A stretch of DNA of 64,000 nucleotides from Thermothelomyces thermophilus ATCC 42464. Lineage: Eukaryota > Ascomycota > Sordariomycetes > Sordariales > Chaetomiaceae. The stretch is from positions 3,472,001 to 3,536,000 of the forward strand of contig NC_016474.1 of the NCBI RefSeq assembly GCF_000226095.1. The letters run 5' to 3'. The position numbers were made by a program, and so were the translations under genes. The notes beneath the pieces are model-generated. The model searched no databases. It saw only the letters and a program-made list of their open reading frames with translations, and had not been told where the DNA came from. Below, piece after piece: positions 18,101 to 61,565 of this stretch. Numbering within the stretch: position 1 is the first letter of the stretch; every line of letters begins with the position of its first letter.

Positions 18101-18973
18101 TCACCGTTTTGCGAAACCGGCTCTTTTGCCTCGCCCAAACCGGACGCTCATCGGCACAAATCTCAATGACGACATGGCGCTCGTTAGGTCCTCCATCTCC
18201 TCTTCTGGGAGCTGCTCGGGACTCCGCCGATTCGATTCCGCCGCCTGTCTCTCATCTGCTGCTGCGATCATGTTGGCGGACGCGTCGACTCTTTGCGCCT
18301 GACCCTGTGCTTGAGTCTGGCTGGGCTGCTGGTGCGCTGCTCTCGCCGTCCTTGATTTTTGGCGACTACCACTGCTCTCTAATAAAAGAGAGCGCCGGCC
18401 ATCTATCCCTTCCCGTGTGATGGCGAAGAAGAAGTTTTTGGGATACATGTGTTTATCGATCAAGTGCATTCTCCGTTTCTGCGGTGTGCTGCACTTCCTG
18501 TCGCAGCCCTCCACAAAGCAGGAGTACTGCGGACGGAAATTAGCCAGCCGTGCGGCACAGGATGGGCTTGTGGTACTTACAGTGCGTTCCCCCCTTTCCC
18601 TCCTCGCCTGGACGAAGGAGTCATGTGTTTCCTCGATATGCAAGCTCAGAAGGTGGGCGCTTGGGAAGTTCTTGCGGCACTCAGCACATCGGTTGGAGTG
18701 CTGGTCCCTGTAGTGGGCCTCGTATGCACCGTATGATGAGAAGACTACGGGTTCGCGGTGCGGAGGCAGGGAACATTGCATCTCGACGTTGAGGTCACTG
18801 TCATTATCAGATAGGTCAAGACCCGCAATTTTGGTGGCAGGGGCCGATGCCTCATTGTCGCTGCTTCTTCCTTCCCACCCGCCACGGCCGTCTCCAGTTT
18901 TGGCGTCTAGGTCCCGCTCTGAAAGTGCGGCTCCGTTATAAGGAGTTTCCTCAGGTTCGCGTGAACGCTTCAT
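18101..18973 (-). CDS. C2H2 zinc finger protein, ZNF511-like
   Basis: Predicted 272-aa protein resembling the ZNF511 family of C2H2 proteins, conserved from fungi to animals and of poorly known function. Two exons (18973-18581 and 18526-18101) flank a 54-bp intron (GTAAGT...CGCAG) that is stop-free and a multiple of three. Splicing restores the family spacing between ERGERT and YSCFVEGCDRKC. The start MKRSREPEE at 18973 is chosen because upstream sequence of the frame contains a poly-C run and no conservation. Fingers: an incomplete one around residues 67-92, a C2H2 with C96, C99, H112 and H117 (CAECRKNFPSAHLLSLHIEE), and a longer one with C134, C139, H152 and H157. The C terminus is Gln/Ala-rich with a basic tail. 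The stop is UGA followed by C, but a second stop lies two codons on. Likely nuclear. Confidence 0.85.
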   Translation of the reverse strand: MKRSREPEETPYNGAALSERDLDAKTGDGRGGWEGRSSDNEASAPATKIAGLDLSDNDSDLNVEMQCSLPPHREPVVFSSYGAYEAHYRDQHSNRCAECRKNFPSAHLLSLHIEETHDSFVQARRERGERTVSTTSPSCAARLANFRPQYSCFVEGCDRKCSTPQKRRMHLIDKHMYPKNFFFAITREGIDGRRSLLLESSGSRQKSRTARAAHQQPSQTQAQGQAQRVDASANMIAAADERQAAESNRRSPEQLPEEEMEDLTSAMSSLRFVPMSVRFGRGKRAGFAKR

Positions 18974-20052
18974 TCTTGGGATATTGATCCAGGAACAGAC
19001 ATCGAATCTATCGTCTGGCCCACTGTTAGTTTGTTGCTGGCTTATTCCTGGTCCCCCCCCCCCCGGAACAAGGGAAAAAAAGAGCAAATAAACTAAACGG
19101 GGATTGGGGCACAACAAAAGGCAAACGTTAGGTGTAGAAGTGGCAAGAGGAAGAAGCCCTATATCATGTTTCTTACAAGGGAGCTGTCGTGTGACGAAAG
19201 TCTGCAAGCGAATGGTCTTCGCGCCTCATCAACATTTTTGGCTTGACCATACTATCCTACCTTTTTATCCCTGTGTAATGTTCCTCAAGTACCGACTGGT
19301 TAGACCCCCAAATTGTCGCTTAGAGCTGTAGGATTATGACTATTGGAACGCCAAACTTGGCAGAGCTTCCGATGTCGATGGTGGGTTGATGATTGTACAT
19401 GACCTGATGTAGACGTGTGTACGAGTATGCGTCAAAGACTCTACTCCGTTGTTAGGCAGTATGGACCTGCTCACCTCCGGCGCCTGGTGTGACTGGGGGG
19501 ACCACAGCGGGCAGGGGCGCTGCTGATTGGCTGTTCTAGACATCCCGCTCTTCGAAGAGAGTGACAAGGGTCTTTTGTCGTCCAATGTCTGGCTGTTGAA
19601 ATCGTACGGCGGGTCGCTTTGCGAATTGCTTCGATTTTCAGAACCGCCTTGCCTTTCTTTTGTGCCGTTTCTACGCTTGGTCGCGCATCGCTCGTCGCAC
19701 ACTTCCTCTCCAAAGGCCTAACTAACGCCGTCACTGTGTCGGCATTGGTTTACGCGTCCTCCACCCCAATGCGCTCATCACCTGCCGCACAACTGCCCGC
19801 CGAAAGCCGCAGCGCCCCTCCTCGACCGTCCGCCGAACTCAGTGCGTCACCATCAAGTTATGGACCGCCTGCGCAATATCGGCTTTCCGATTACTGCGTG
19901 TGAGCTTTGGCCATAGGGACCGGCTCCTCTTCTGCAAAGTGTTCCTTCCTCTTCGAGAACAAAAATTATTCAGACCGGCTTCGGTGTTCCCCGTCTGCGT
20001 CTGCGGTCTGTCTGCGAGACAATTCGTGCTCGTCGGGTAGCGGCGACCAACC
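18974..20052. promoter_or_regulatory. Divergent promoter region, ZNF511-like and EST1-like genes
   Basis: 1.1 kb between two divergent starts. A poly-C run (about 19055-19064) lies in the probable leader of the zinc finger gene. The 200 bp before 20053 are pyrimidine-rich and CG-rich, like a leader. No other gene can be supported; the minus-strand open frame at 19340-19702 has no recognisable content. Confidence 0.45.
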
Positions 20053-23000
20053 ATGGCCTCAACCACCGCGACTGCCGCGGCGGCTACCCCAGCCATGCCG
20101 TCAACTGACGAGGCCTGGAAGTGAGTGTTTACGAGCCCAAGAAACAGGGTCGATGTCATGTATTCGCAAATCAAAATGCCATGATTGTTCGAAAGCAGCA
20201 ATCGACAGCAACCGCGCGCCGTGCGAGCCCAAGCTTGCTAACTCGACCACGCAGACTCGCACAGAAGCTACGTGCCGCGATTGTAAAGGAACTCGAGCAT
20301 GTCCAGAAGGGCGGTCGCGGCACAAATGAGCTCGCGCGTTTCGAGAAAGTCGAGAAGTTGATGGAGAAGTTAGTCGTCACCCGATATTGTCCCCGTGCAC
20401 CCCGCCAGACTCGACTAACCGACGACTCCCAGTTATCGCCTTGCCTGCCTCCAAACCATCTGGCCCGACATGCGTGCTGCCAACGAGAAGAACGCCGAGG
20501 ACGCTCTCTGGCATACCCATACTTTGGTCACCAAGACCTACCGGAAGGTGCTTGGGAGGCTCCAGGGCGACGACAACGTCGTCCTGCGACGGAAAGTCGA
20601 GAAGCTCTATGCCCACTACCTCAAGACGGCTCAATACTTCTACAGGGGCTATCTGCAACGGGTTTGCGCGAGATACGACATGAAAGATCTCAAACGCATC
20701 GCTCGCCGCGCGGATCTTCAGGAGATGCCCTTGCCGGATAAGGAGAAGGTTGACGCTTCGGCAGCACAGCTTGAGGATATTGTCAAGCGCTCGTGCCACA
20801 AGACGCTCATCTACCTCGGTGATCTATCGAGATACCGCACGCTACTGCGGGCAAAGGACCCCAAATGGGACGGCGCTCTGGCATACTATCTCCTGGCAAA
20901 CGAGCTCATACCCGAATCTGGACATGGCTATCACCAGTGTGGGGTCATCTACGTCGAGACTGGGGATCACCTTCAGGTGGTTTATCACCTATACCGTGCC
21001 TTGGCATGCGATCTGCCACACCCGAATGCTTCGACAAACCTCGATCTCGAGTTCCGTGAACTCCAGAAACGCAAGGACATCACCAGCAAACATGCGTTGG
21101 TGACTTGGTTCGTGAAGCTCCATGCCTTCTACTCGCAGGGAAAGGACTTCACCGAGCGTAAAGAACTCGAGAGGGAGGTTGACCATCGACTTGGCCTCGC
21201 CATGAAGTCGGGAAAGGGATATGACTCGGACCTGGACCTGCTCAAGATTGTTCTTATCAACATCACCGCTTATGTCGCCGCCCAGGACAAGGTTGCCAGT
21301 ATGGATGCGCGGCCTCTCTGATGCTCGTGAACAGTTGCTGACGGAGGGGTAGAAAACTGGACCGACGAGGGCTCGCGATCTTGCCAGTTCCTCCTGCTCC
21401 TCAACCTGCGGACAATCAACGCCATCGCACGTCTCATTGGAGAAGAAATTACAGACGTCATCAAGCGCAAAGATGCGGAGGCTCCCGTCAGCACTTCTGT
21501 GACCGCCTCACAGACGGAGCCCCCAACCAAGTTTACGCCCGCCTTCAACCGTATCCTACCCCTTCTGCGTGTTTACATGGCATGGCTTTGTTCCTACGGC
21601 TCCCAACTTGTTGAATTTCGGCCGCATCTCGAACCGCAGTTTGGCGCTATGTGCGTGACGCTGAGCAACACGTTATCCCTCCTGTTCGAGTTATTGGGTG
21701 GAGACCAACAGCTCGGAAATCCGGTTTCGTGGCGCTTTCCCGAGGACGAGATTACCATGGGCATCAGGTGCCTCAATGGACCCGATTTGCACGACGGCTG
21801 CCAGCTTTATTACGATGCCTTTACGCGCAAGCCCAAGCCGCGCCGCGAAGACGTTCCCGATGCCAACGGCACCGATGATGATGTGTCGTTCACCCGTGCG
21901 CTGGACGTTCTGCTCTGCGGCCTGGACCTATCCGAGCCGGAGTCGAAGTTCCCGTTCACCACATCCACAGTTACGAAAGGAGCTAGGGAGCTCACGACTT
22001 TCGTCTATCTTGAAGGCGGCAAGCCCGGCCCTATTCCGAACCCGCCGCCCGTTCAGCATATGACTCCGGTCCCTGTTCCTGCTAGCACGGAGCGTAATCT
22101 GACTGCGCCAGTATTGGCTCCGAGTCCTTGCGAGTCTAACGAGCTCTCCGAGAACCGGGACTTTTACGGTCCGGATTTGCGAAACAATACTGGAAACAAC
22201 GCTCGTAACGGGCCAGTTTCGACAAGCATTGCACCAGCGCCAACGGCGCCTGTTTCCGAGTTCCCCATTGAAAGACAGATGTTCAATATCCTGAACGAGT
22301 TCATCAACCCTCCCGAATCCGCACCGGCGGCCAAACCTGAGACTCCTAGTCGCCCTGTTGCACGAACGAGCCCGTATGGTATGGGTTCCGCATCCGCTGC
22401 TGAGACCTTCGGAGCTAGAGCTTCGGGCAGCTCGGGACCTGGGTCTGCTGCTGGCGGCAAAGTTCTTCCTACTCTACCATGGGAGTATTTCTACAAGCCT
22501 TCGGCCAACCCAGCCTTGCAATCTTCGGGCACTAATGGTCTGGCTGCTGGATGGGCCGCAAACGGCAGAGCGTTTTCGCGACCGACAAGCTCGGGCAATG
22601 GGCTCCAGCTAGGGATTGGGGCGACCGCCGGCAGCCCGCTTGCACGGCAGGCGCAGCAGAGGTACGATAGCCGAGAACAGTCGAGGTTGCTTGAAGAGCA
22701 AGAAGACATTCTCCGCTCTCTAGATCTGGAGTCGGTCCAAACCAGTCAGCCTCGGCAATCCCATGACACCCGGGGAGGCTGGCCTGCCGTAGCCGCACAG
22801 AGCTCGAGCTCTGTAATCGGAACAGCGTCCCACTCTTTGCAGCAGCAGAGCACCTGGCTCCCCCCGGCAAGCCCTTGGCAGACTACTCATGGCCAGAACC
22901 CCACGGTCACGACGACTACTGGCGGCGTCCCCAATTCGCCGTTTTCGACACTCAACTTCTCGACAAATAGTTCATCTATACCCGCCGTCAATAGCCCGTG

Positions 23001-23193
23001 GGGCGTGCCCTCGCACGGCGCGTTCGCTAGAGACTGGCCCGACGCTCGACAGCCGAGAACGGGCGTAGCTCAGCAACCGCTGGGGCTGGATATCTGGGGC
23101 GACGCGATGGGGCAACAGCAGCAGCTGGCAGTGGGCGAGAGTTCCGGTGGAACTTGGACGGTGCGGCAGCAGCAGGGCATGCCGAAACGTTGA
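20053..23193 (+). CDS. EST1/SMG7-like TPR protein
   Basis: Predicted 962-aa member of the EST1/SMG5-7 family, which includes telomerase cofactors and nonsense-mediated decay adaptors with a 14-3-3-like TPR fold. Four exons: 20053-20120, 20255-20368, 20433-21298, 21353-23193; introns of 134, 64 and 54 bp close the frame. Residues about 24-200 form the EST1 N-terminal helical domain (LAQKLRAAIVKELEHV, YAHYLKTAQYFYRGYLQRVC). Residues about 205-480 form the Est1 nucleic-acid-binding/TPR region (RSCHKTLIYLGDLSRYR, GYHQCGVIYVETGDHLQVVY, FLLLLNLRTINAIARLIGEE). The remaining half is Ser/Pro/Gln-rich and probably disordered. No PIN domain is present, so it is closer to SMG7/Ebs1 than to SMG6. Filamentous fungi usually have a single such protein, so its role could be decay, telomere or both; that cannot be decided here. 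Confidence 0.88.
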
Positions 23194-33064: not shown

Positions 33065-34085
33065 TGTGAAGGTGGGCTTCAAGACTTGATGCTTGAGATC
33101 ATGGAATTGGGTTGGGGGGGGGGGGGGGTGCTGTTACGCCCGGAGTCGTAGGTCGCCGTCGGTCTCGAGACAACGATACGCTAGTGTTGGGCAGCGGGCC
33201 CAGAGAGACGCGGCCGGTCCAGGGTACGGAGTAACTGCTGTGGCTATCGTCAGAGCCCCACAAATAAGCAGTCCCCGTGTTCTTGGCTGAACAGCGTGTT
33301 TAACCCTTGCACTTGGCACTCCGTATAGTTAACGAGCAGGGTGGTCTAGTGTAATCCGTCCCTATAGTTGTAATCCTTACAGTTTTGACCCTGACTCCGT
33401 CTCGTTATCACTCACGACAGCTAGTTAAGTCTGTACTGTTGTTTGGTGACACGTATGTATGTACCCGTAAATCTCCTCCCACTCCTCGAAATGGAACCAC
33501 CCCATCTTGTCTGCACTTGAGTGCTATGTTGCTGAAAGGAAACCTTCGCGCACCAATCAGTGAATCAGTGACCTGACACATCCAACAAGAAAGCGCAAAG
33601 CCCCACCTAGAAGGCAAGAATGCGCCTTAAGACTGACGCACTGGCTAAGACGTAATACTCCGTAAATAGTTTCGTGGCATACTAGTAGTACGGAGTACAT
33701 CAGGTATTTGTCGGTGTAGGCTGGATACCCAGCTGGGGTACGCAGGGTGTACTCGTAATCCGTACTTTCCTAGTTGCAGGGTCACTTGGCCAACAAGCCT
33801 CGGCCAGGAAGATATTCTGTGCGGCCCATGACCAATGGTGACTCGAACCACTCAGGCAACAGGTGGGGCTCAGGGCGGCCACTTTGCCCCAGCCCATAAA
33901 AAGCTTCACAACTTGAAACCCCTCTCGCGTTCAACCCCACCAAATTCGAGAATTCCCGGTTTCCAGACATAACTTCGCCAGGAACGAGAACACTTCTTTT
34001 CTTGAGGAGGAGTTAGGCAAATTTTTATTTTTCCAACGTTTCCTTTTCTCACATCGGTACTTTCCTTTCGTAACAAGTTTTCACC
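33065..34085. promoter_or_regulatory. Divergent promoter region of ATG43-like gene and eRF1
   Basis: 1.0 kb between two divergent starts. It contains a run of 15 G (33114-33128; poly-C in the ATG43-like leader) and three TACGGAGTA/TACTCCGTA motifs (33225, 33656, 33689). The 100 bp before eRF1 are T/C-rich, ending in TTTTCACC before the ATG. Confidence 0.5.
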
Positions 34086-35596
34086 ATGAGCGACCCCAAC
34101 GCGAGTGAAGCGGAGAAGAATGTGAGACGCGCGCATCTTCTGGCATCCTACGATGACTTGCGTATGCTGACAATGTGGCCGGTAGATCGAGATTTGGAAG
34201 GTGAAGAAGCTCATCAAGAGGCTCGAGGCCGCACGCGGAAATGGCACCAGCATGATTTCTCTGATCATCCGTACGTCTCTTCAACCCAGTCGCCTAGCCT
34301 CGCCCGTGTGCACAGTGTTGCTGATCGACTTATTCAGCGCCGAAGGATCAGATCTCTCGTGCGGCGAAGATGTTGGCTGAAGAATACGTACGTCTCCTGC
34401 AAGATGCGAGGAAGCGTCTCGGCCATGACATTGCCCAATCTAACACGAACGCAACATAGGGAACCGCATCCAATATCAAGTCGCGTGTCAACAGGCAGTC
34501 TGTCCTTTCGGCCATTACCTCGACCCAGCAACGCCTGAAGCTCTACAACAAGGTCCCTCCCAATGGCCTCGTGGTGTACTGTGGCGAAATCTTGACCTCC
34601 GAGGGCAAGGAACGCAAGGTCAACATCGATTTCGAGCCCTTCAAGCCCATCAATACCTCGTTGTACCTGTGCGACAACAAATTCCACACCGAGGCTCTGG
34701 CCGAGCTGCTCGAGTCGGACCAGAAGTTCGGTTTCATTGTCATGGATGGTAACGGGGCGCTGTTCGGCACCCTCAGCGGCAACACCCGTGACGTTGTTCA
34801 GAAGTTCACGGTCGATCTCCCCAAGAAGCACGGCCGTGGTGGTCAGTCTGCGCTACGTTTCGCGCGTCTGAGAGAGGAAAAGCGCCACAACTACGTGCGA
34901 AAGGTTGCCGAGTTGGCGGTTCAGAACTTCATCACCAACGACAAGGTCAACGTTGCCGGCATTGTGTTGGCTGGCTCGGCCGACTTCAAGAACGACCTGA
35001 ACGGATCCGATATGTTCGACCCACGTCTGCAAGTCAAGGTCATCAAGGTTGTAGACGTGTCGTACGGTGGCGAGAACGGATTCAACCAGGCCATCGAGCT
35101 GTCCGCCGAGACGCTGGGCAATGTCAAGTTCATTCAGGAGAAGAAGCTCATCAGCAAGTACTTCGAGGAGATCAGCCAGGACACTGGCCGAGTCTGCTAC
35201 GGTATCGACGACACGCTCAAGGCGCTGGAACTGGGCGCTGTCGAGACGTTGATTGTTTTTGAGAACCTCGAGATTACCCGCTGGACCTTGAAGGACAGCA
35301 ACGGCAGCGAGATAATTCTGCACACGACCAAGCAGCAGGAGCAGAGCAACCGCGAGAAATTCATGGACAAGGAGACGGGTCAGGAGATGGAGGTTGTCTC
35401 TCAGGAGTCCTTCCTTGAGTGGATCGCCGAGCACTACAAAGATTTCGGCACCACCCTCGAGTTTGTCTCGGACCGGTCGACCGAGGGTAACCAGTTCGTC
35501 AAGGGCTTCGGCGGCATTGGCGGCCTTCTCCGGTACAAGGTCAACTTTGAGCAGTTAGCTGACGTGGATGACGATGATGAATACTACGACGATTGA
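34086..35596 (+). CDS. SUP45: Translation termination factor eRF1
   Basis: Predicted 435-aa eukaryotic class I release factor, which reads all three stop codons in the ribosomal A site and triggers peptide release with eRF3. Four exons: 34086-34121, 34186-34270, 34338-34387, 34460-35596; introns of 64, 67 and 72 bp, two of them with GTACGT donors. Key motifs are all present: NIKS (62-65) and YLCDNKF (126-132) of the stop-codon-reading domain, and GGQ (184-186, [13 protein letters not shown]), the catalytic loop in the peptidyl transferase centre. The acidic C-terminal tail [11 protein letters not shown] is usual. Length matches the family (435-437 aa). The stop is UGA-C, followed by an in-frame open extension and a candidate 3' untranslated intron (separate entries), which together suggest autoregulation by read-through and mRNA decay. 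Confidence 0.97.
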
Positions 35597-35818
35597 CCCG
35601 TTGATTCCCTCGTTGACAACGAGGGATCCGGGATCGAAGCCATCACGTCCGAGCCGATGACACCGCGTGCCGACCAGGCGGCCTCCGCGTCGCGAAGCCC
35701 CGAGAAGAAGGTTCCGCCCGCGCAGCGGCGGCTGAAGCAGGGCTTTCCGGCGGGCCCGAGCCGCGATCACCAGGTGTCGCGTCCCAGCCCGCTTCGCTCT
35801 GTGATGACGGCTTCTTGA
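35597..35818 (+). other. In-frame extension after the eRF1 stop (candidate read-through region)
   Basis: After the eRF1 UGA the same frame continues for 73 sense codons to a second UGA at 35816-35818. The third codon position is about 78% G+C (57 of 73, counted by hand), higher than positions one (about 70%) and two (about 59%), which is the order seen in real coding sequence here. The encoded tail is Ser/Pro/Arg-rich (for example RSPEKKVPPAQRRLKQG) and ends in SVMTAS; it has no recognised domain or peroxisomal signal. Whether it is translated is not shown by the sequence. Confidence 0.45.
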
Positions 35819-35836
35819 GTTGGAGGCAGACAGAAG

Positions 35837-35895
35837 GTACGTGGCTCTCTTCCAACGAATGATGGGTTGCGCTCGTTCCTGACTCGGCATGATAG
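35837..35895 (+). other. Candidate spliced intron in the eRF1 3' untranslated region
   Basis: GAAG/GTACGT donor, CTGAC branch site (35879-35883) and ATAG acceptor 13 nt after the branch A give a 59-bp intron with all signals at normal spacing. The donor hexamer is the same as in eRF1 introns 2 and 3. It lies 240 nt after the annotated stop but only 18 nt after the second stop. Confidence 0.6.
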
Positions 35896-36584
35896 GTAGA
35901 TGCCCGTAGGATCGAGAAGTCGGCCAAGTACGAATCATTGCAGGGCATCAATCGGGAGATTGGTTCTAGACACTTTTTGGGGACACGAGCTGGTAGGGCT
36001 ATCAGTGGTCCTGGAACGCGGACCTCGCACCAAGCCATGCGGTGTCCGTCCGGTCTGTAATTGTCACGGGAGATTTGTCGAGTCTTAGATAGCTGGTTTA
36101 CGAACCGACACTCATTTATGGCAATCCGTTTTTAAAGACGTGCAATGTAGCTTTTGCTTGTTGGTGCGGTCAGGATAGGTCTGCAGTTTCACTGACGATA
36201 TCCAAATGGCTGCTCCCGCAAGCATCATCATTGTACTGTACGACACCCGACAAAAATAAAATGGGGCCGAACTCGGCCGCCCGTCTCCAGCTCTGCGGGG
36301 TTGGACGCACAACTTTAGCAACCAAAGCTCCAGCAACATGTTGAAAAGGGTCAAAGGAGAGCGGATCAGTTCGGCGAAAGGGGCATTGTTCATGGTCGTT
36401 GCCTCGCGTATGTTGAAGCAGATGTCACGCCCTTATCTTGACATATTTTATAGTTTATTATATTTTTCCTATATCTCTCACAGCAGATCAATGAAACTCT
36501 TTCTCTTCTCCTCGGTCCTCGACTAATTAGGATATCCAATTGATCCCGAGTTTCTGCATGTTACAACCCCCATCGTCGGTCACC
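35896..36584. other. Spacer between eRF1 and prephenate dehydratase genes
   Basis: 689 bp holding the rest of the eRF1 3' untranslated region and the promoter and leader of the downstream gene on the same strand. It becomes AT-rich around 36420-36480. No further gene recognised. Confidence 0.55.
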
Positions 36585-37863
36585 ATGACAGCATCAAGCC
36601 CTCACCAAGTCTCGAGCCAGGCAAACCTTAACACCAACACAACCGTCGCCTTCCTCGGGCCAGTCAACTCGTACTCGCATCAGGTAGAGTGGGACTCATT
36701 AGACCTCCGGCAAAATCCAGATTAACCCAAAAAAAAAAAAAAATCTGACATTTTATGGGTCAAGGCCACCAAAACTGCCTTTCCGGAGCCAGAATGGCGC
36801 CTCGAGCCGACGGGGACGATAAAAGGTACCGACGCCGCCCAGCTTGAATGAGCTCTCCGGTCGGCCTTCAGAGCCCTTACAAGCTTCAACAGAGGTCTTT
36901 GACCGCGTGCAGGCCGGACAGGCGGCCTACGGGGTCGTACCGTTCGAGAACTCGACTCACGGCACTGTCGCCTTCACGCTCGACAACCTCGCCGACCGCG
37001 CGGGCGAGTACGCCGAGATCGTCGTGTGCGACGAGGTCTACCTGGACGTGCACCACTTCCTGCTGGGCCGCCGCCGTGATCCCGATCCCCTCCTTCGGGA
37101 CCCGTCGCCAGGATCAGCATCAGCATCGGTATCAGCATCAGCTGCTCCATCAGCGGCGGCACCATCATCGCACCACAGTAGTAGCAGCAGCAGTAACAGC
37201 AAGGGCGTGCCCCTCGCCTCGCTGTCGCACATCCGCCGCCTCTACTCGCACCCGCAGGCGTTCGGGCAGACGGGCGCCTTCGTGCGGCGGTACCTGGCGC
37301 ACGCGGAGACGGTCGAGGTCAGCTCGACGTCGCGCGCCGCCGAGCTCGCGGCGGGCGACCCGGCGGGCGAGAGCGCCGCCATCGCCAGCGAGTGGGCCGC
37401 GCGGGGGTTCGGCCTCGACGTGCTCGCGCGCTGGGTGGAGGACCGCGAGGACAACACGACCCGCTTCTTTGTGCTCCGGAAGGACGGGGAGGAGGGCGAA
37501 GGGGGGAGAGCTGGGAGAGCTGACGGGGGAGAGGAGGGCAAGGGGCGAGAGGACGAGGATGATGCTGCTGCTTATAGCGGGGCCAGGTACAAGTCGCTGG
37601 TGTCGTTCACGGTGCCGCATCGGCAGCCGGGGGCGCTGGCGGACGTGCTGGACTGCTTCCGGGGGAGGGGGCTGAACCTGACGAGCATCAACAGCGTGCC
37701 CAGCCTGGTCGAGCCGTTCCAGTACCTGTTCTTTGTCGAGTTCGAAGGGAGCAGGTTGGACGACCCCGAGGGGAGGGTCGGCGGCGTGTTGGAGGATCTG
37801 AACAGGGTCGCGGAGCGGTGGAGATGGTTGGGCAGCTGGCGGAACCGCAGAAGTGGGAGGTGA
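36585..37863 (+). CDS. PHA2: Prephenate dehydratase
   Basis: Predicted 376-aa prephenate dehydratase, which converts prephenate to phenylpyruvate in phenylalanine synthesis. Three exons: 36585-36683, 36765-36825, 36893-37863; introns of 81 and 67 bp. The second intron has a less common GTACCG donor, but without it the frame stops, and with it the family motif TI-x-EVFDRVQAGQAAYG is restored. Catalytic-domain motifs are AFLGPVNSYSHQ, GVVPFENSTHG (67-77) and TRF (243-245, in DNTTRFFVL). An ACT regulatory domain for phenylalanine binding spans about 286-350 (SFTVPHRQPGALADVL, LNLTSINSVPS). Two inserts are unusual: a Ser/Ala/His-rich one (about 117-159) and a Gly/Glu/Asp-rich linker before the ACT domain. 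The start at 36585 is preferred; an in-frame ATG at 36558 would add nine residues. The stop codon directly abuts a GA/GT microsatellite. Confidence 0.9.
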
Positions 37864-37906: not shown

Positions 37907-38516
37907 GTTGTGTAGAGGGTAAGGGCAAATGAACGATTAAAAAAAGAGGAAGATTATTCTTCTCTTTTCCTTCTTTTCCTTCTTCTCTTTCTTCTTCCTC
38001 CTCCTCCTCATCATCATCATCCTGTTCTTCTTTTTTATCTTCCTCCTTTCAGAAAGTAACTGGTTCATGTATTAGAGTTGGGGGCCGGAGGTGTGCAGCT
38101 ACTGTGATTGAGGTCACTCATGTGCCCCATTGCATTCATAAGGCGGTTTGCCGTCGAGCCTAGCTTTACGGAGGAGTACTACCGGCCGCCGCATAACTTG
38201 GCTGCTTGAGCCAACAAAACTCGGATGCTCAGAAAGGAAGTCGAAGCTCAAATGCGCACCTTCCCTCTAGATCTCAGGCCCTTGTTCTCCTGTGAGCGGC
38301 TGCGGGAGAGGAAGATAACCCTAACCCTTCTTTCCTCTTGAACGCCTTATCCTCGGTCCACGACAACCGACGATCTCATGTACTAATAGTTACCTATTTA
38401 TGTGCATGCACATAAAGCGCAGGGCTCGATTGATTCTAAAAGACCTTGTCGGCCGCGTCGCCAAGGAATTTATCTCGTCTCATACTCATAACTACTCATA
38501 CTCACTAAACGATGCA
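37907..38516. other. Spacer between prephenate dehydratase and HTD2-like genes
   Basis: 610 bp with a pyrimidine/CTT-rich tract (about 37955-38050) and otherwise unremarkable sequence. Promoter and leader of the HTD2-like gene are expected near the right end. Confidence 0.55.
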
Positions 38517-40043
38517 ATGATGCGTGCCTCAATGCTCAGCGCGCCCCTTCGACGGCACCGACCCTCGAATCTTGGGTACCTTCGGCCCATCTTCAGCCGC
38601 GCTTTCTTCTTCTCATCATCATCATCATCATCAATATCATTATCAACATCGTCTTCTTCTTCTTCTTCTGCATCCGCGCCATTTGACTTGGAGGCATACC
38701 TCCAGTCGGCTCGCCAAAAGCTGACCTCGCGACCACCGACTCTTATCCCCGACGTCCTCTCCCCCACGCACTCCCATCTCCTCACCCTCTCCCTGGCAGA
38801 CCACGTCCCGGCCCTCTTTCCGGCCGACCAGCTCTCCAGACCCCTCTTTCCCCTGCCGTCACCGTCATCGCCACCGTCATCACCAAAAGTCGGCGGCGCC
38901 GACGCCGCGAGAGCGGAGGAGAAGGACGAGGAGGACCTGACACTCCCGCAGGGCCACCACCTCGTCTACTTCCCCCTCCAGCTGCCCCCCTCCCGCCTGC
39001 TCCCCGACGGCACCGACCCGGACCACTGCCCCGGCGCGCCCTTTGTGCGCCGCATGTGGGCCGGCGGCGAGGTCGTCTTCCGCGAGGGCTGGGACCGCGC
39101 CATGCGCACCGACGGCCGCCGCGCCCTCTGCGTCGAGACCGTCGGCGCCCCCGTCCTCAAGCGCGGCCACGCCGGCGCTACCGGGACCGGGACCGACTCC
39201 GGCACAGGGCAGGAAAAGGTCTTTGTCGACGTCCGCCGGCTCTACGGCGCCGGGGAGGAAGAGTGTGCCGAGATGCTCCGGAGCGGGACCGCGCCGGTGG
39301 AGGAGATCCGCCGGTTGGTCTTTATGCGTGGGAGGGATAGCCGGGCCGGGGAGGCGGCGGTTGCGCGGAGAATCCTGAAAGGTGTGTTTTACCCAATTAT
39401 GTTTTTTCTTTTTTTTTACCTTTTTCTTTTCCTCTCTTTATGCCTTCTGGTCTTCCCCTCCGAGGCCATGAAATGGGGGAATAGAGACATGCTTTTTTTT
39501 TTTTTCTTGGACTGCCCCTGCCCCTGCTGGTGTTGTCGTTCGTGCCGTGTTAGCCTTTTCGCTAATGGGGAACCCCCAATCCTTTTGGGAAAAAAAATAT
39601 ATATATATAAAGCCTCCGCCGCGCCAGAGTTCACCTTCTCGCTGAAGCCCGACGCGACGCTGCTCTTCCACTTCAGCGCGCTCACCTACAACGCCCACTC
39701 CATCCATCTCGACCCGGGGTACGCCCGGAACCGCGAAGGGTACAAGGGCCTGCTCGTCCACGGCCCGCTCTCGCTCGTCCTCATGCTCTCCGCCCTGCGG
39801 GCCTGCCTGGCCAAGCTGTCGCCGTGGCCCCGGACGGGAGCGCACGGGCAGCCGCGGCCCGGCTACGTCAAGTCGCTCAGCTACCGGAACATCGCCCCGC
39901 TCTACGTGGACGAGCAGATGACGGTGTGCCTGCGCAGGACCAAGTCGGCCGCCGGTGAGCTAGGTTGGGACGTGTGGATCGAGGGGCCTGACGGCGGACT
40001 CGCCGTCAAGGGGAAAGCCATCACAACTGATATCGCATCGTAA
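38517..40043 (+). CDS. HTD2: Mitochondrial 3-hydroxyacyl-thioester dehydratase, HTD2-like
   Basis: Predicted 431-aa hot-dog-fold dehydratase like yeast Htd2, which dehydrates 3-hydroxyacyl-ACP in mitochondrial fatty acid synthesis (precursor of lipoate). Two exons: 38517-39381 and 39613-40043. The N terminus MMRASMLSAPLRRHRP is Arg-rich with no acidic residue, as in a mitochondrial targeting peptide, followed by a Ser run encoded by TCA/TCT repeats. The first half holds the degenerate hot-dog (HHLVYFPLQLPPSRLLPDGT, MWAGGEVVF). The second holds the hydratase motif FSALTYNAHSIHLDP (309-323) with candidate catalytic residues N315, H317 and H320, then GLLVHGPLSLVLML. The intron (231 bp, GTGTGT...AAAG) is stop-free and a multiple of three, so it can be misread as coding; its T-rich translation is hydrophobic and unlike the family. 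An in-frame ATG at 38400 would add 39 residues ahead of the targeting peptide and is rejected. Confidence 0.83.
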   Translation: MMRASMLSAPLRRHRPSNLGYLRPIFSRAFFFSSSSSSSISLSTSSSSSSSASAPFDLEAYLQSARQKLTSRPPTLIPDVLSPTHSHLLTLSLADHVPALFPADQLSRPLFPLPSPSSPPSSPKVGGADAARAEEKDEEDLTLPQGHHLVYFPLQLPPSRLLPDGTDPDHCPGAPFVRRMWAGGEVVFREGWDRAMRTDGRRALCVETVGAPVLKRGHAGATGTGTDSGTGQEKVFVDVRRLYGAGEEECAEMLRSGTAPVEEIRRLVFMRGRDSRAGEAAVARRILKGVFYPIMFFLFFYLFLFLSLCLLVFPSEAMKWGNRDMLFFFFLDCPCPCWCCRSCRVSLFANGEPPILLGKKIYIYKASAAPEFTFSLKPDATLLFHFSALTYNAHSIHLDPGYARNREGYKGLLVHGPLSLVLMLSALRACLAKLSPWPRTGAHGQPRPGYVKSLSYRNIAPLYVDEQMTVCLRRTKSAAGELGWDVWIEGPDGGLAVKGKAITTDIAS

Positions 40044-40482
40044 ACAACCAGGCCGATGGAAGGAACTTCCTTCTTGACGTTCGGTAACAGGGCAGTTCGG
40101 CCCATCTCCAAGGGAGAGAACCCGAAGACTAATCATGTATATACATTAATTATAAAATGGTTCGCAATGAACAAGCATGTCATGACGGTCCCGTCACACT
40201 GTCACTCTAGGCAGAGAGAGCCGCTAGCATATATGTTGCGGGGATGATATTTGTTTACATGGATTATTATTACCTTAAAAGCATTGCTATCATCTATGGG
40301 TATCTCGAGACTTGATGCATCCCTTAAGAAAAACGCCAACACTTTTCCCAGCCCAATCCCATCCTCCTAATTATACACGATCATCGTACAACTCACACAA
40401 GACAAGAGAGAGAGGTATTTACAACCCGCTTTCTGCAGATAACCCTCTGTATATCCGTGGCAATGGCGTGCACAATGGCACA
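40044..40482. other. 3' spacer between convergent genes
   Basis: 439 bp between the HTD2-like stop and the stop of the large minus-strand LRR gene. AT-rich around 40130-40300; no gene seen. Confidence 0.6.
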
Positions 40483-45989: not shown

Positions 45990-46413
45990 TGTCACGGAAA
46001 TATGCATGCAGCTGCCGCCTGGGCCACCGACACAAACGGGCCAATCAAGCCGAAAGAATGACGGACCAATCAGGACAGGATCACACTTGGCAAGAAATGA
46101 TCCTAGCAGAGGATCACTAGCTCACGACGTGAGCCAGGTGAGCTAGTACAGAGGATCACCACGACCGCTAGTAATCCTAGGAGTATATATATAAATAGTC
46201 ACTTGTTATAGTAGACTCTAAGAGTTTACTAGTAGTAATAATTACAATTATAGTACTTATACTAAGTATTACTAATTATTATAAGAGATAACTCTAAGTG
46301 TTATTATAAACTCTTTAGCTTTACTAAATCCCTTAGACGACCTGCCTACTTGTCACGCTTAACCTACCTTTGTCTAAACCCTTTTAGAAGAAGTCTAAGT
46401 TAGGTTTATTATA
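45990..46413 (+). repeat. 5' LTR of element A
   Basis: 424-bp LTR starting TGTCACGGAAATAT and ending in a mutated ...CACA-type end. It shares diagnostic bases with the LTR at 61118-61545 (CACCGACACAAAC, AGTACAGAGGATCACC), which identifies that copy as its partner. Confidence 0.9.
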
Positions 46414-49249
46414 TATTATTACTACTCCCTTTGTTCTATCATGGTTCAGAATAGAGGTAACTTTGACCTTAACATCGATATAGCTACTAACGTTATAGCC
46501 GAATAGCTGCTTGCTTAGCTTAGTTAACTCTAGCAGTGGATCTAGGAGTTAGACTAGAGAGATAAGGCTACTTAAGCTCGAATTAAGGAACTCGAGAACC
46601 GTAAAAAGTACTTATAGAAGTTAGTTAACAAGGCCTACGCTAAAATCGAAGTACTTAAGGGCGCTAAAGTAAAGCGTATTAAGATCAAACTACCTAGTAA
46701 ATATAGAGGAACTAAGGAAGATCTTATAAGGTTCCTAATAAACCTCTGATTTTACTTCTAGCTTAATGATAACAAGTTTCTAGATAACAAAGCCAAAGTC
46801 CTCTATATAGCTATAAGACTAGAGGGTAAGGTACTTAGATAGTTTAAGCCTATATAGAATGACTATCTTACTAAGGAAGACAAAGACGACTAAGACGTAT
46901 TTATATAAGCAGTCTTCTAATCTTATAACCGTTTCGAAAAAGAGCTTTAGAAAGTTTTTAGCGATAAAGATAAGAAGATTTATATATAAGAAAGACTTGC
47001 TAATCTCTAATAGACTAAGTTAGTAACCTCCTATACTATATAGTTTAGATAGGATATACTTAAGTCTTAGCTTAACGATAAGGCGTTGATATAATTATTC
47101 TATAATAGCTTAAAGGAAAAGGTTAAGGATAAGCTATATAAGTATAATCGGCCTAAGACTCTAGACAAATATATTATATAGGCTATCAAAATCGATAATT
47201 AACTCTATATATAAGAGCAATAGAAACAAGGTCAAATAAACGAAACCATAGTTAAGGCTAACGACAAGAAAAAGTAAACATATATTAGTACCTTATATAG
47301 GACGTACCCTAGAGCTATAGATATAGATATAGCATAAAAGCAAGACTAGAAGAAGACATCTAAAGACAAGTCTAATATTACCTACTATAACTACAGAAAG
47401 AAAGAGCACTATAAGTAAGAATATCAAAGCCTAAAGAAAGAGTAGAAGACAGTCCCTAGAAAGGAAATTACGGCTATCGACAAAACCACTAAGGATATTA
47501 TCAAAGTAGCGGCTACAAGCTACAAAGACAAGGGCAATGACACAGACAATCTTAGACACGACGGTAACGGTAAAGACGAACAAGCACCGTACTCCGAACT
47601 AGTCACTATAGATCCAGAGATAGGTCTTGCCAAATAGGACATGGTAGGAGAATATGCACCGCCAGTTTTGATTCTCCTAGCCTTAAGGCAGTAAGGTTTT
47701 ACAGTTATATAAAGGAGGGATAGATTATAGACAATAGATACCTAAGGAATCGAAAGACCTAGACCTAATGTTTTATTCCTTTAGGAACGAATTGAATAGT
47801 ACTATAACGAAGTTTTCTAACTTAACATGGAACTACGCGAATAGGATAGACGCTTAATTCGACTTGCTTAGTAGAGTAATAAAATGAGAGATGAAATGAG
47901 GGAACTTTAACATATCGTAGAAATTATTAAAGGAGAATAGCCTATGACATATAATAGGCCTAATAGCTACGCTAAGTATCTTAATGGCTAATAACTTAGT
48001 AATAATATACAGAACCTAGAATACTAGTTTATATATATAAACCATAGAAAGGACAAACGTACGTAAGAAAGCTACTAGAAAAAATACTCCTATGTTAGTA
48101 CTAGAGTATTTACGGTCTATATATAATAGGAAGGATTTGGGAAAGAATTCTAATACCTCCTAGGCGATGCTACGTGACTGTACCTTCGATATAAGGCACA
48201 TGCGTAAGTGCCTTAGTTCTAGTATATAGTATATAAATGCTAATATTACTTCTATAACAAATTCAAAAACAATCACTAGCCGACCTAATAAGGAAATAAG
48301 GATAGAAGCTTATACCCTGTGGAATAGGTCTACAATATAGGAAACAAAGTAGCTAAATTGCTCTAGAAGATCAAAGCCTACGATTTAGAAGGCATTACGA
48401 TAGTTCTAAGATGAGCCTAGCCTAGGCACTACAGAACCAGACGAGATATATAGGACTTATGCTAGAGTAACGATTACCTCTATTATACGGATGAAAAGAA
48501 ATTGCGAATTTGGGAGCTTTAGACGAAGCTATAGTACATACGACAGAAAGTAGAACAGACCTAATAGTAAGAAGCCGTAAGCACTTAATAGCTTATAGAA
48601 ATAAGCACGATCGATAAAGCCGCTATTAGCCGAACAACTAAAGAGGTTAGTACTAACCTAGGAAATAGGTTAGGGCCCTTTAAGGGGCCCGGAAGCTATT
48701 AACGCCTATGTAGCAGCGGGTAGTAGCGTAGTATAGGAGGAACTGGCGTAAGAGACTACTATATCGAGACCTCCGGCAGAAACATAGGAAATCGCCGCAA
48801 TCTTTAGACGACGGCGGCAAGATAAGCGATTATAGATAATAGCATAGTAAAAACAGTACAAAATACTCGTACTAGTAGATAGTAGAGCAGAGATAAACCT
48901 AATTTTGCCGACACTTGTAAATTAGCTATAGATACCCTAGAGAATAAAGCGGAAGCATAGCATAGTCAAAGGGCTATTTCCGATGTAATAGGTATATAGA
49001 GAGACCAAACTAATTAATATTACTATAGTAGGGAAGACTATAGCAGTCGTATTTAGCATTATAGATATAGGCAACGACAAAGATATAATATTAGGGTTAC
49101 TATAGTATAAAGATTACGACCTAGACATTAGCTAGAAGAATGGTAGCTACCTATAACCCTAAATGAAGTTATATTTGACTAGTAAGATAGGGAGCACGCA
49201 AGGATCATGAGCAGATAATGCTTAAGGAAAGGCATATCCTACGGATCCA

Positions 49250-49673
49250 TGTTATAGAAATATATATGCAGATACCGCCTAAGCCACTGGCACGAACAGG
49301 CTAATTAAGCCAAAGGAATGATAGACTAATCAGGATAGGATCACGCTTAGCAAGAAATGATCCTAATAGAGGATCACTAGCTTACGATATAAGCTAGGTA
49401 AGTTAGTATAAATAATCACCACGACTACTAGTAATCCTAGGAGTATATATATAAATAGTTACTCGTTATAGTAGACTCTAAGAGTTTACTAGTAGTAATA
49501 ATTACAATTATAGTACTTATACTAAGTATTGTTAATTATTATAAGAGATAACTCTAAGTGTTATTATAAACCCTTTAGCTTTACTAAATCCCTTAGACAA
49601 CCTGCCTACTTGTCACGCTTAACCTACCTCTATCTAGACCCTTTTAGAAGAAGTCTAAGTTAGGTTCGTCATA
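49250..49673 (+). repeat. 5' LTR of element B
   Basis: 424-bp LTR, same family as the A LTRs but with B-type diagnostic bases (CACTGGCACGAAC, AGTATAAATAATCACC). It is followed by the same interior sequence that follows the A 5' LTR. Confidence 0.9.
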
Positions 49674-52600
49674 TATTATTACTACTCCCTTTGTTCTATC
49701 ATAGTTTAGAACAGAGGTGACTTCGACCTCGACATCGATATAGCTACTAACGTTACGGCCGAACAGCTGCTCGCTCAGCTTGGTCAACTCTAGCAGCGGA
49801 TCTAGAAGTTAGACTAGAGAGACAAGGCTGCTTAAGCTCGAATCAAGGAACTCGAGAACTATAAAAAGTACTTATAGAAGTTAGTTAACGAGGCCTACGC
49901 TAAAATCGAGGCACTTAAGGGCGCTAAAGCGAAGCATATTAAGATCAAACTACCTAGTAAATATAGAGGAACCAAGGAGGATCTCGTAGGATTCCTAATA
50001 AACCTCTGATCCTACTTCTGGCTTAATGACGATAAGTTTCTAGACAATAAAGCTAAAGTCCTCTATATAGCTATAAGACTAGAGGGTAAGGCACTTAGAT
50101 AGTTCGAGCTTATATAGAACGACTATCTTATAGAAGAAGACGAAGACGACCGAGACGTGTTTATATAGGCAGTCTTCCAATCTTATAATCGTTTTAAAGA
50201 AAAGCTTTAGAAGGTTTTTAGCGACAAAGACAAGAAGATTTATATATAAGAAAGACTTATTAATCTCTAACAGACTAAGTTAGTAGCCTCCTATACTATA
50301 TAGTTTAGATAGGATATACTTAAGTCTTAGCTTAACAATGAGGTGTTAATGTAATTATTTTATAATAGCTTAAAGGAAAAGGTTAAGGACGAGCTATATA
50401 AGTATAATCGGCCTAAAACTTTAGACAAATATATTATATAGGCTATTAGGATCGATAATCGACTCTATATACGAGAGTAATAAAAACAAGGATAAATAAA
50501 CGGAACTACGGTTAAGGCTAACGACAAAAAAAAGTAAGCGTATATTAGTATCTTATATAGGACGTACCTTAGAGCTATAGATATAGATATAGCATAGAAG
50601 CAGGACTAGAAGAAGATAACCAAAGATAAGTCTAATATTACCTACTATAACTACAGAAAGAAGGGGCACTATAAGCAAGAATACCAGAGCCTAAAGAAAG
50701 AATAGAAACTAGCCCCTAGAAAGAAAATTACGGCTATTAACAAAACTACTAAAGACGTTATCAAAGTAGTAACTACAAGCTATAAAGACAAGGATAGTGA
50801 TATAGATAGTCTCGGATATGACGGTAACGGTAAAGACAAACAAGCACTATACTCCGAACTGGTTACTATGGACCTAGAGACAGGTCTCGCCGAATAGGAC
50901 ACGGCAGGAGAGTATATACCGCCAATTTCGATTCTCCTAGCCTTGAGGTAGTAGGGTTTCATAGTTATACAGAGGTAGGATAGATTATAGACAACCGATA
51001 CCTAAGGAATTAAAAGACCTAGACCTAATGCTCTATTCCTCTAGGAACAAATCGAATGATACTATAACGAAGTTTTCCGACTTAATATGGAACTATACGA
51101 ATAGGATAGACACTTGACTTGACTTGCCTAGTAGAGTAATAAGACGAAGGACGAAATAAGGGAACTCCGATATATTGTAGAAGCTATTAAAGGAGAATAG
51201 CCTATGATATATAATAGGCCTGATAGCTATACCGAGTACCTTGACGATTAGTAACTTAGTAATGACGTACGGAACCTAGAATACTAGTTTATATGTGTAA
51301 ACTATGGAAAAGACGAGCATACGTGGGAAAGCTACTAGAAGAAACACTCTTATCTTAGCATTAGAGTACTTACAGCCTACGTATAGTAAGAAGGATTTAG
51401 GAAAGAATTCTAATACCTCCTAGGCAACGCTATATGACTATACCCTCGATACGAGGCATATATACAAGTGCCCTAGTTCTAGTATATAGCATACAAATGC
51501 CAATATCACTTCTATAACAAATTCGAAAACAATTACTAGCCAACTTAATAAGGAAATAAGGACAGAGGCTTGTACCCTGTGAAATAGGTCTATAATGTAG
51601 GAAACAGAGTGGCCGAATTGCTCTAGAAGATCGAAACTCGCAATCTAAAAGGCATTACGGTAGTTCCAAGACAAGCCTAGCCTAGGCACTACGGAACCGG
51701 ACGAGACATATAAGACTTGTGCTAGAGTAACGATTGCCTCTATCACGCGGACGAAAAGAAATCACGAATTCGGGAGCTTTAGATAAAGCTATAGCACGTA
51801 CGACGAAAAGTAAAACAGACCTAATAGTAAGAAGCCGTAAGTACCTAATGGCTCACGGAAATGAGCACAATTAATAAAGCTACTATCAGCCAAACAACTA
51901 AAGAGGTTAGCACTGACCTAGGAAACGGGTCAGGGCCCTTCGAGGGGCCCGAGAGCTATTAACGCCTATGTAGTGGCGAGTGGTAGCATAATATAGGAGA
52001 GACTGGCGTAGGAGACCACTATATCGAGACCTCCTAGCAAAAACATGGGAAATCGCTGTAATCTTTAGACGATGGCGGCAAGATAAACGACTATAGATAA
52101 TAGTACAATGGAAACAGTACGAAATGCTCGTACTAGTAGATAGTAGAGCAGAGATAAACCTAATTTTGCCAATACTTGTAAATTAGCTACAGATACTCTA
52201 GAGAATGAAGCGGAAGCATAGCATAGTCAAAGGGCCATTTCTAACGTAATAGGTATATAGAGAGACCGAACCAATCGATATTACTATGGTAGGGAAGACT
52301 ATAGTAGTCGTATTTAGTATCGTAGATATAGGTAACGATAAAGATATAATATTAGGATTACCATAGTATAAAGATTATAACCTAGACATTAGCTAGAAGA
52401 ATAGTAGCTACTTACGACCCTAAATGGAGTCGTATTTGACTAGTAAGATAGGAAGCACGTAAGGATCGCGAGCGGACGATGCTTAGGGGAAAGCATATCC
52501 TATAGATCTACTATAAGAGACGGATAGTGGCAGGCAGACCACTACAGACTCTAGAAGAGGTGGCATAACGACATCGATATCGCGATAGGAAGAACGAGCT

Positions 52601-55600
52601 AAACCGCCGATAGCTATTCTCTCCGTTAACGAATGTAGAGCACTATAATTAGAGTAGTAGGTTAAGATAGGAGAAATCGCTAGTATTACTATAGACAGAA
52701 CCAAGTTCGTATACTATTAGAAAACCGAGAGACAAGACAAGACTAGGAAAGTACTAAAGGAATACGAAGGATACCTAGCATTTAAACCGAAGTATCTAGA
52801 AGGATTACTAGAATACGGCCTATAGGATTACGAGATTAAGCTTAAAGAAGGAGTATAACTAAAGTTCTTCAAGATTTACTATATAAGCTAGATATAGAAC
52901 AAAGAACTTAAGCGATATTTAGAGGAGAACCTTCGAAGAGGACATATCCGCCTGTTAATATCGCTAGCAGGCTACCTAATCCTATTTATGCCTAAGAAAG
53001 ACAGAAAGCTATAGTTATACGTTAACTATTAGTAACTTAATAAACAGACCGTGAAAAATCAATACCTATTACCGCTAATCTTATAGTTCCGAGATTAGTT
53101 AGCAGGAGCCTAATATTTTACGTATCTTGACTTGCTATTAGCCTATAACTATATACGGATCAAAGAAGGCGACGAGTGGAAAACGGCCTTTAGGATACCC
53201 TATAGCCACTACGAGTACCTCATTATACCATTCGGACTTACGAACGCGCTAGCAACGTTCTAAGCCCTAATTAATCAAGCTATCTAACCCTTTCTCGACA
53301 AATTTATAATATATTATCTTGACGATATACTTATCTTCTCTAAGACGATAGATAAATACTAGAAGTATATAAAAGTAGTGCTAGACGCGCTATACACGTA
53401 CAAACTATCAGTTAATAAGGAAAAGAGCAAATTCCACGTTAGGAAAACGGTATTTCTAAGATATGAAATATCCCTAGGACAAATTCAGATAGAACCTTCA
53501 AAGGTTAAAGCTATTAAGAATTGGCTATAACCGACGTTAGTCACAGAAGTACAAAGCTTCATCAGATTTACAAACTTCTACCGAATGTTCATTAGGAACT
53601 TTAGAGCGATTATACGACCTTTGTATAAACTTACTAAGAAGAATGCCAAATTCTAATAGGAAGAGCGATATAAGCAAGCATTTATAAAGATTTGTAATAC
53701 CATTACTAAAGATCTAGTACTAGTACTACTAGACCCTAAGAAGCTATTCGAGGTAGAAATGGACGCTTCAGACTACACTATTAGAGGATAATTGGGATAA
53801 CGAGACGGATAAGGGAAGCTATATCCTATAGCCTTCTTTTCGAAGAAGCTCAATAGACCACGTCTTAATTATCCGATCTATAATAAGGAACTACTTACGA
53901 TTATTAAAGCTTTTAAGGAATAGCGACTATACCTTAGTAGTACGATTAAACCGGTACAAGTATATATAGATCACAAGAACCTATAATACTTTACGACAAC
54001 GAAAGAACTTAACGGACGACAAATACGATAGGTAGAATTCCTCGTAGAATTTAACTTTAAAATCCGCTATAAGAAGGGCAAAGAGAATATATAAGCAGAC
54101 ACCTTAAGCCGACAAACGGATCACATAGAAGGATAAATAGGAATAACACTACCGTTGTTCAAGGAACGAACAGACAGAACGCTATATTACGAAACGTAGA
54201 TACCTATAGAAGATGATCTACTCGACTTGTTCTTAGAATGCTATATAATCTTTTAAGAGGAAAGGATTAACGAGGCATAGTATTAAGCAGCACCTAGACT
54301 AGTAATACCTAATGGAGTGGAAGAAAAAGATAGAAAACTCTGGTACTAAGGCAAAGCGTATATCTACGATAAAGATCAACAGCTACGGATGATTCGAGAA
54401 CTCTACAAGTCGAAACTTGGAGGATATAAAGGAGTTACGAAGACTGCCGCACAAGTCAAGAAATATTATGACTTTCTATAGTTAATGGCACGAGTTAGGG
54501 AAGTTATATGGAACTACGACATTTGCAATTAAAGCAAAACGGCACGATATAAGCCGTATAGGCTACTTTAGCTACTACTAATAGCTAATAAACTATAGAG
54601 TTTAGTTACGATAGACTTTATTACAAAGCTGCCAGAATCTAAGGACACGGCCATAGGAGTAATCTACGATAGTATTCTTACTATAGTAGATTGCCTAACT
54701 AAGTAGGTATACTTCTTTCCTTACAAGGAGTCCTAGATAGCTAAATAGCTAGTAGACATAATCTATTAGCAAGTTATATTAGTATATGCTTGGCTGTAAG
54801 AATAAATTACCGACAGAGATACTAAGTTCGTATCGAAGTTCTAGCAAGCGTTAATATAACGATTAGGCATCAATAACAAGCTATTAACGGCATATTACCT
54901 ATAGACCGATAGACAAATAGAGCGATTAAACCAAGTTATTAAGTAATATCTCCGTTCTTATGTCAACTACTAGTAAGACGACTAGGTCATGCTATTACTA
55001 ATAGTACAACTCGCCTATAATACGACGCCGATAGAAACGACCAAAGTTACACCATTCTTCGTAAACTATAGATATAAAGCAGACCTTAGGCAAGGACCAG
55101 AGGTCACAGTACCAAGAGTAGCAGTTAAAGTAGAACAAATGTATACATTATATGAAAAGCTTAAAAAGGAACTCGAGTTTGTCAAGACTAGAATAAAGAA
55201 CTACTACAACAAATATAGGCTCAAGGGACCTTACCTAGAGAGGGGAGACAAAGTCTACCTAATCGCACGAAACTTACGAACTAAACGACTAAGCGCGAAG
55301 CTAGACTTTAAGAAGGTCGGACCCTTCATTATCAAAGAACGAATTTCGACATCTAACTACCGATTATTGTTATTATTATCTATATAACTATAGACGGATA
55401 TTTTTTATATTTTACTCCTTGAACCAGTACCGAAAAACGCTAAGGTTATTACATATATTAAAGTAGAAGATAAGGAAGAAGAATAGAACGTCGAAGAAAT
55501 TCTAGATTTATATATTATTAACAGGGAACTATAATATCTAGTTAAATAGCTTGATTTTAGACTAGAAGATAACTTATAAGAACTAGTTAAGAACTTAAAC

Positions 55601-56374
55601 TACCCTAAGAAACTAGAACAGTTCTACCGGCAGAACCCGGATCAACTATAGGCACTAGCTCGGACAAAACGGCCAAGTCAGCCTCCGACAAATCTAGGCC
55701 TAAAGAAGACTAGTCAAACGGGACGTCAGCACCCTAGGACCATATATCACTAATAATACGTACTTCGGAATCCCGCACCCTCCGTTCTTCCGCCTCTATT
55801 TCCTCTAGAGACTGTATACCTCGATGAAACAGCTCGGAACCCCGCTCCTTTAAGAAACGTTTCTAGTGACGAAGACGAGCTAATCGACCGATAGCTGTCT
55901 AAAGTTAAGTCTGAAGGACAAAAAGGGCCTCTTTGGCATTAGCCTCTTCTTGCTCTACACGCTTTTGTTTAGATATAATCTTTGTTATTATAAAGAATTA
56001 GCTACGAACACTAAGGCAATAAACCAAGTCATAAATAAGCAGACGCTACGTCAGAACCATTATAAGAACGACCCTAATATATATACTTGCTATAGTAAGA
56101 AGAGCCTAACGCTATATAATAAGCCAAGTTCTACTTAAAATACTATAAATATGGCATGACATCTACGTTAGAAGAATTAATAAAAGAAGCAAGCGCAGCG
56201 CGCTATTAGGATTTCGAGGATCGGCGCTTAGAAACACAATCTACCATCTTGTCAGTTACTAGTAATATAGGAAAAGGGAAAAATTACAAGGTATACATAG
56301 AAAAGGATATTAGCGCTATTTGAAACGGCCTAAAAGAGGGCTTTCAGGTCAAAAGCCTCGGAGGGAGGGCATCG

Positions 56375-56798
56375 TATCACGGAAATATGTATACAGATGC
56401 CGCCTAAGCTACTGGCACGAACGGGCTAATCAAGCCGAAGGAATAATGGACTAATTAGGACGGGATTACGCTTGGCAAGAAATGATCCCAATAGAGGATC
56501 ACTAGCTTACGATATGAGCTAGGTAAGCTAGTATAAATGATCACTACGACTACTAGTAATCCTAGGAGTATATATATAAATAGTTACTTGTTATGGTAGA
56601 CTCTAGGAGTTTACCAATGGTAATAATCACAATTATAGTACTTATATCAAGTATTGTTAATTACTATAAGAGATAACTCTAAGTGTTATTATAAACCCTT
56701 TAGCTTTACCAAATCCCTTAGATGACCTGCCTACTCGTCACGCTTAACCTACCTCCGTCTAGACCCTTTTAGAAGAAGTCTGAGTTAGGTTCGTCACA
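56375..56798 (+). repeat. 3' LTR of element B
   Basis: 424-bp partner of the LTR at 49250-49673, sharing the CACTGGCACGAAC and AGTATAAATGATCAC variants. It ends in GGTTCGTCACA, immediately followed by the target duplication and the resumed interior of element A. Confidence 0.9.
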
Positions 56799-60892: not shown

Positions 60893-61117
60893 ATATAGTA
60901 TAACGTCTACGCTAGAGGAGTCAATAAAAGAAGCAAGCGTAGCACGCTGTTAGGATTTCAAAGATCGGCGCTTAGAGATACAATCTACCATCTTATTAGC
61001 TACTAGTAATATAGAAAAAGGAAAAAATTACAAGGTATATATAGAAAAGGATGTTAGCGCTATTTAAAACGGCCTAAAGAGGGCTTTTAGGTCAAAAGCC
61101 TCGGAGGGAGGGCATCA

Positions 61118-61545: not shown

Positions 61546-61565
61546 AAAGGGTATGAGATATGTTA

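Follow-up and report, generated by a model that had tools for sequence, protein, structure and literature searches.

Does the eRF1 gene in this window (the whole stretch of DNA analysed here, 64,000 nucleotides in length) carry, beyond its stop codon, the elements of a switch through which the release factor could control its own level? The original prediction had proposed just this: a switch joining read-through of the stop to EJC-dependent mRNA decay, offered as an inference from plants. A closer precedent had already been published, since the title of Kurilla et al. 2020 (FEBS Lett 594:3504, cited in PMC10578600) names Neurospora crassa erf1 as autoregulated via read-through and 3'UTR-intron NMD, a circuit that is also tied there to Zhang and Sachs 2015 (Genetics 200:1133). 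On the evidence set out below we consider it probable that the eRF1 gene in the window is a member of this known fungal and plant circuit, in which case the published feedback of a release factor on itself would reach a further fungal genome. The layout fits such a switch, but two of its supports proved less solid than had been proposed, namely the open frame after the stop, which is weak evidence, and the stop context, which is UGA-CC and not UGA-CU.

The identification of the gene as eRF1 held. Among PDB chains the region 34532-35593 matched those of eRF1, the lowest E-value being 3.3e-172, the three eRF1 domains of Pfam (eRF1_1, eRF1_2 and eRF1_3) were matched across 34460-35593, and the four exons of the coding region (34086-35593, plus strand; exons 34086-34121, 34186-34270, 34338-34387 and 34460-35593) joined into a stop-free translation of 434 amino acids with the C-terminal end DDDDEYYDD. 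The exons are separated by intron 1 (34122-34185, GTGAGA...CTGAC...TAG), which was placed by the joined translation and a relaxed splice pattern, and by introns 2 (34271-34337, GTACGT...CTGAT...CAG) and 3 (34388-34459, GTACGT...CTAAC...TAG), which were placed by the joined translation and their splice signals. The gene is complete and, judged by its short introns and its surroundings, filamentous-fungal.

Downstream of eRF1 and also on the plus strand lies a prephenate dehydratase gene (36844-37863, Pfam PDT), while about 11 kb upstream ends an EST1/SMG5-7-like gene (20470-23193, plus strand), in which Pfam EST1 and EST1_DNA_bind were matched over two ORFs. The EST1/SMG5-7 protein family includes some NMD factors; the 907 nt after the stop of this gene held no intron-like model under the relaxed rule. 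Farther along the window the block 46001-62000 is AT-rich (GC 34-40% per kb), with a TpA/ApT of 1.57 and a composite RIP index of 0.99, the values for 1-45000 being 0.69 and -0.46. These values suggest repeats heavily mutated by RIP, as would fit a fungus of the Pezizomycotina.

Beyond the coding region the first stop, a UGA in the context GAU-UGA-CCC (35594-35596), is followed in frame by an extension of 73 sense codons (35597-35815), with GC contents of 68.5, 58.9 and 78.1% at codon positions one, two and three, and then by a second UGA (35816-35818). Both stops, the 73 codons between them and a position-three GC of about 78% had been given exactly. A 59-nt 3'UTR intron with full signals had also been claimed, and these signals are indeed present at 35837-35895 (GTACGT...CTGAC...TAG, plus strand); the distances of this predicted intron from the first stop (240 nt) and the second (18 nt) follow from the coordinates. 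Its GTACGT donor recurs in two of the three introns of the coding region, namely 2 and 3, and from branch to acceptor it measures 13, similar to the 15, 13 and 16 of those three. When a single relaxed splice rule was applied to 34086-36250, the donors recovered were those of the three coding introns and 35837, together with two further upstream donors that share the acceptor of coding intron 3. Three acceptors in all are possible for the predicted 3'UTR intron, the two alternatives ending at 35899 and 35909. Among 2000 shuffled 3' regions an intron-like model appeared 12 times with a GTACGT donor and 230 times with any accepted donor.

How often would such an arrangement occur by chance? We defined the full layout as an open frame that closes at a second stop no more than 50 nt from a donor, with 60 nt or more between the first stop and that donor. 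It arose in 200 of 20,000 shuffles, and across 44-kb stretches of both strands it followed 22 of 1208 TGAs, eRF1 included (11/600 on the plus strand and 11/608 on the minus strand). These rates speak for the view that the arrangement regulates nothing, a 3'UTR intron, or merely intron-like signals, having come to lie behind a frame that is open in a GC-rich setting. The same view can draw on Trichoderma reesei, where eRF1 mRNA in the presence of caffeine, an NMD inhibitor, went down at 2, 12 and 120 h and up at 72 h (data given in part of PMC9118705), a mixed response that does not fit simple NMD control in that species, caffeine being a blunt tool. Since the circuit has been published for eRF1 both in plants and in Neurospora, the prior against an incidental arrangement is high, and we regard it as very improbable.

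The openness of the extension is by itself weak evidence, because 43% of 20,000 dinucleotide shuffles of its own sequence also stayed open, as an incidental frame would. Shuffles with the composition of the region downstream were open in 7% of 5,000 cases, and one antisense frame of the extension is fully open as well. Moreover among the nine gene ends examined two besides eRF1 have 67 and 52 open codons after the stop. A stretch of 67 open codons at 40041-40244 (plus strand) follows the stop of the ORF 38400-40043, and its codon usage is not gene-like.

Codon usage is the better evidence for the extension, being gene-like overall and best in the eRF1 frame. With a score trained on eight other gene pieces, three of which are ORFs without a Pfam match, the extension reached +0.037 in the eRF1 frame, the five remaining frames giving values between -0.079 and -0.331. 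Of the 124 in-frame CDS windows, 67 scored no higher than the eRF1 frame. Scores as high as that of the extension were found in 11/620 off-frame windows and in 6/960 unannotated ones; 83 of the unannotated windows are free of stops, and 4 of the 6 fall among these. Five other genes are also followed by open stretches, whose in-frame scores were -0.155 to -1.157, with three of the nine ends (1, 1 and 5 open codons) left out of this comparison, and one wrong frame of the 29 codons that follow the kinase gene scored +0.057. The position-three GC excess of the extension was matched in 1.25% of 20,000 shuffles. In its last third (35741-35815) the eRF1 frame scored -0.154 and two other frames scored higher (-0.144 and -0.065). 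The extension peptide had no Pfam match at E-values up to 1 and is probably of little function, the frame mainly having to remain open.

Gene-like codon usage would also be expected if the extension were simply more coding sequence of the ordinary sort, to which alternative splicing or RNA editing gave access without any read-through, and an intron annotated near the 3' end of the coding region of Aspergillus nidulans eRF1, as recorded in part of PMC4065248, points the same way. Against the splicing version, a search of 35400-35815 for in-frame introns of 45-200 nt that would skip the first stop, made with relaxed signals, returned no candidates, and we find extra coding sequence of this kind barely credible.

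The viral and prokaryotic contig collections that we scanned contained no eRF1 relatives close enough for a conservation test. The viral contigs gave none and the genome contigs gave two loci, one of which (L002) is an archaeal record. The other is eukaryotic-looking and 71% identical to eRF1 in its best segment; it is an intron-split eRF1 gene (L001:2932-4386) whose contig is catalogued under a Verrucomicrobiaceae MAG from a pond, probably through contamination. The gene ends in TAA with TAG as the very next codon, leaving no extension.

The proposed leaky context of the first stop came through in part. The UGA-C that had been pointed out is correct, and with UGA-CCC the eRF1 stop would belong to the UGAC class that a passage of PMC3542737 names as a leaky context. 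In Ustilago, however, the short motif that suffices for read-through is UGA followed by CU, the efficiency being set mainly by the first two nucleotides after the stop (Stiebler et al. 2014; passages of PMC4207609), and in eRF1 these two are CC. A gene described as ZNF511-like had been offered as a control that shares the UGA-C but lacks an extension; the ORF in question (18101-19207, minus strand) does end in TGA-CCC and then meets TAG, but its ZNF511 identity found no Pfam support.

A stop without the CU that suffices in Ustilago raises the question of whether read-through is needed at all. The intron alone could drive the feedback through EJC-NMD, with decay tracking the efficiency of termination, read-through at UGA-CC being too rare to matter and the open frame being a relic or neutral. 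Such a scheme has a footing in Neurospora, where EJC-dependent NMD through 3'UTR introns is established, NMD by spliced 3'UTR introns requiring EJC factors (according to passages of PMC10578600), and the openness of the extension, unremarkable for its composition, also speaks for it. It accounts less well for the gene-like in-frame codon usage of the extension, for the placement of the second stop near the intron and for the hairpin described below, and the title of the Neurospora precedent names read-through. We therefore hold feedback through the intron alone to be unlikely, and favour a circuit in which read-through of the first stop takes part.

For read-through to take part with CC rather than CU after the UGA, structure may have to compensate, and a candidate stimulator lies directly behind the stop. 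Here an inverted repeat, absent from the original prediction, is predicted to form the stem-loop CCCG-uu-GAU-u-CCCUCGUU-gac-AACGAGGG-AUC-CGGG (35597-35632, plus strand). Its basal CCCG/CGGG pairing begins immediately 3' of the first stop, and its 8-bp core (35607-35614 with 35618-35625) starts 10 nt after it. The 36-nt hairpin has a predicted energy of -19.0 kcal/mol, equalled in 17/5000 shuffles, and 13 of its 15 pairs have a probability above 0.85 in a 261-nt context, the other two having 0.44 and 0.67. With a few more nucleotides (35597-35640) the fold reaches -20.1 kcal/mol (z -3.47; none of 200 shuffles equally stable), while the first 44 nt behind the stops of five other genes give -0.3 to -16.5 kcal/mol. 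Taken as a whole, the stretch 35560-35836 folds unremarkably (z -0.89, with 36/200 shuffles as stable), so that only the local hairpin stands out.

This hairpin was picked out post hoc, and comparable ones occur at an appreciable rate. An energy of -19.0 kcal/mol is reached by 329 of the 127,930 36-nt windows on both strands (202 of the 329 on the plus strand) and by 35 of 28,538 when GC is matched. On the plus strand 24/755 TGAs and 9/211 TGACs, eRF1 included, have behind them a stem-loop that matches the eRF1 hairpin in shape class and energy. Under the shape rule, which is our own rewriting of a rule in a Drosophila paper, 829 of 6000 random 60-mers qualified, 219 of them with equally low energy, and the 60 nt after the eRF1 stop were matched in stability by 289 of 3000 shuffles. 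An Rfam search of 33600-36600 at E-values up to 1 returned a single match, outside the feature and far below the gathering score.

With these figures in mind we put forward, as a tentative possibility, that the stem-loop at 35597-35632 may be a dedicated read-through stimulator, and that a structured element of the kind found in viruses and Drosophila, in place of a CU context, would set both the leakiness of the sensor stop and the set-point of the feedback. If the hairpin does stimulate read-through, a structured element would reside inside the termination machinery's own gene and offer a testable control of that set-point. Among the literature matches listed, which come from a source of partial coverage with many journals outside it, none described a hairpin behind the stop of a fungal eRF1 gene. 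The hairpin together with the CC context may be a new detail, one that the titles and passages on the known circuit do not cover.

The geometry around the predicted junction fits read-through coupled to decay. Vertebrates and plants follow a >50-nt rule, and their EJC sits 20-25 nt upstream of the junction (as described in part of PMC3711448). The two eRF1 stops straddle this rule: the splice signals lie 240 nt downstream of the first, which would place the predicted intron beyond the limit, versus 18 nt from the second. If an EJC sat 20-24 nt before the predicted junction, it would occupy 35813-35817 and overlap the second stop; a ribosome terminating at the first stop would not disturb it, one that had read through would have to displace it, and a second stop on the expected EJC site is a layout that would make the switch sharp.

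From this arrangement we infer how splicing, EJC deposition, read-through, decay and feedback would be connected in eRF1. With ample eRF1, ribosomes would terminate at the first UGA, and the spliced 3'UTR intron would leave an EJC about 220 nt downstream of it, which would recruit NMD and lead to decay of the mRNA. When eRF1 is scarce, near-cognate tRNAs would win at the leaky UGA-C, perhaps aided by the adjacent 3' hairpin, and the ribosomes reading through would translate the 73 codons and halt at the second UGA, atop the EJC site. The EJC would thereby be displaced, the eRF1 mRNA would survive and more eRF1 would be made.

Finally we compared the locus with known systems. Kurilla and colleagues are said to have proposed similar circuits in many fungi and in seed plants. 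The nearest likeness is to Neurospora crassa erf1, which is likewise a filamentous-fungal eRF1 gene with read-through and an NMD-triggering 3'UTR intron, both of which are predicted here from the sequence. The stop of plant eRF1-1 studied by Nyiko and colleagues is reportedly UGA-CUA, whereas the gene in the window has UGA-CCC and a predicted hairpin. The plant gene otherwise resembles the arrangement predicted here, in that read-through protects the mRNA from NMD triggered by a 3'UTR with a distant intron (Nyiko et al. 2017, as described in part of PMC11062462), and in A. nidulans the 3' non-coding region of eRF1 is annotated as containing an intron (PMC4065248, in part). With viral type II elements and Drosophila dfr the locus would share a stem-loop that lies behind the stop at roughly +8 to +10: read-through structures typically start about 8 nt 3' of the stop (a passage of PMC3542737), in dfr the stem-loop that stimulates read-through spans +9 to +59 (part of PMC13170385), and the core stem predicted for eRF1 would start at 10 nt. 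The viral elements differ in using UGA-CGG or UGA-CUA where eRF1 has UGA-CCC, and dfr differs in its UAG stop, that of eRF1 being UGA with a stem-loop that is predicted. As for bacterial RF2, it too is a release factor that gauges its abundance at a UGA-C within the mRNA encoding it, but it does so by +1 frameshifting inside the coding region, with no read-through or decay (passages of PMC5009743).
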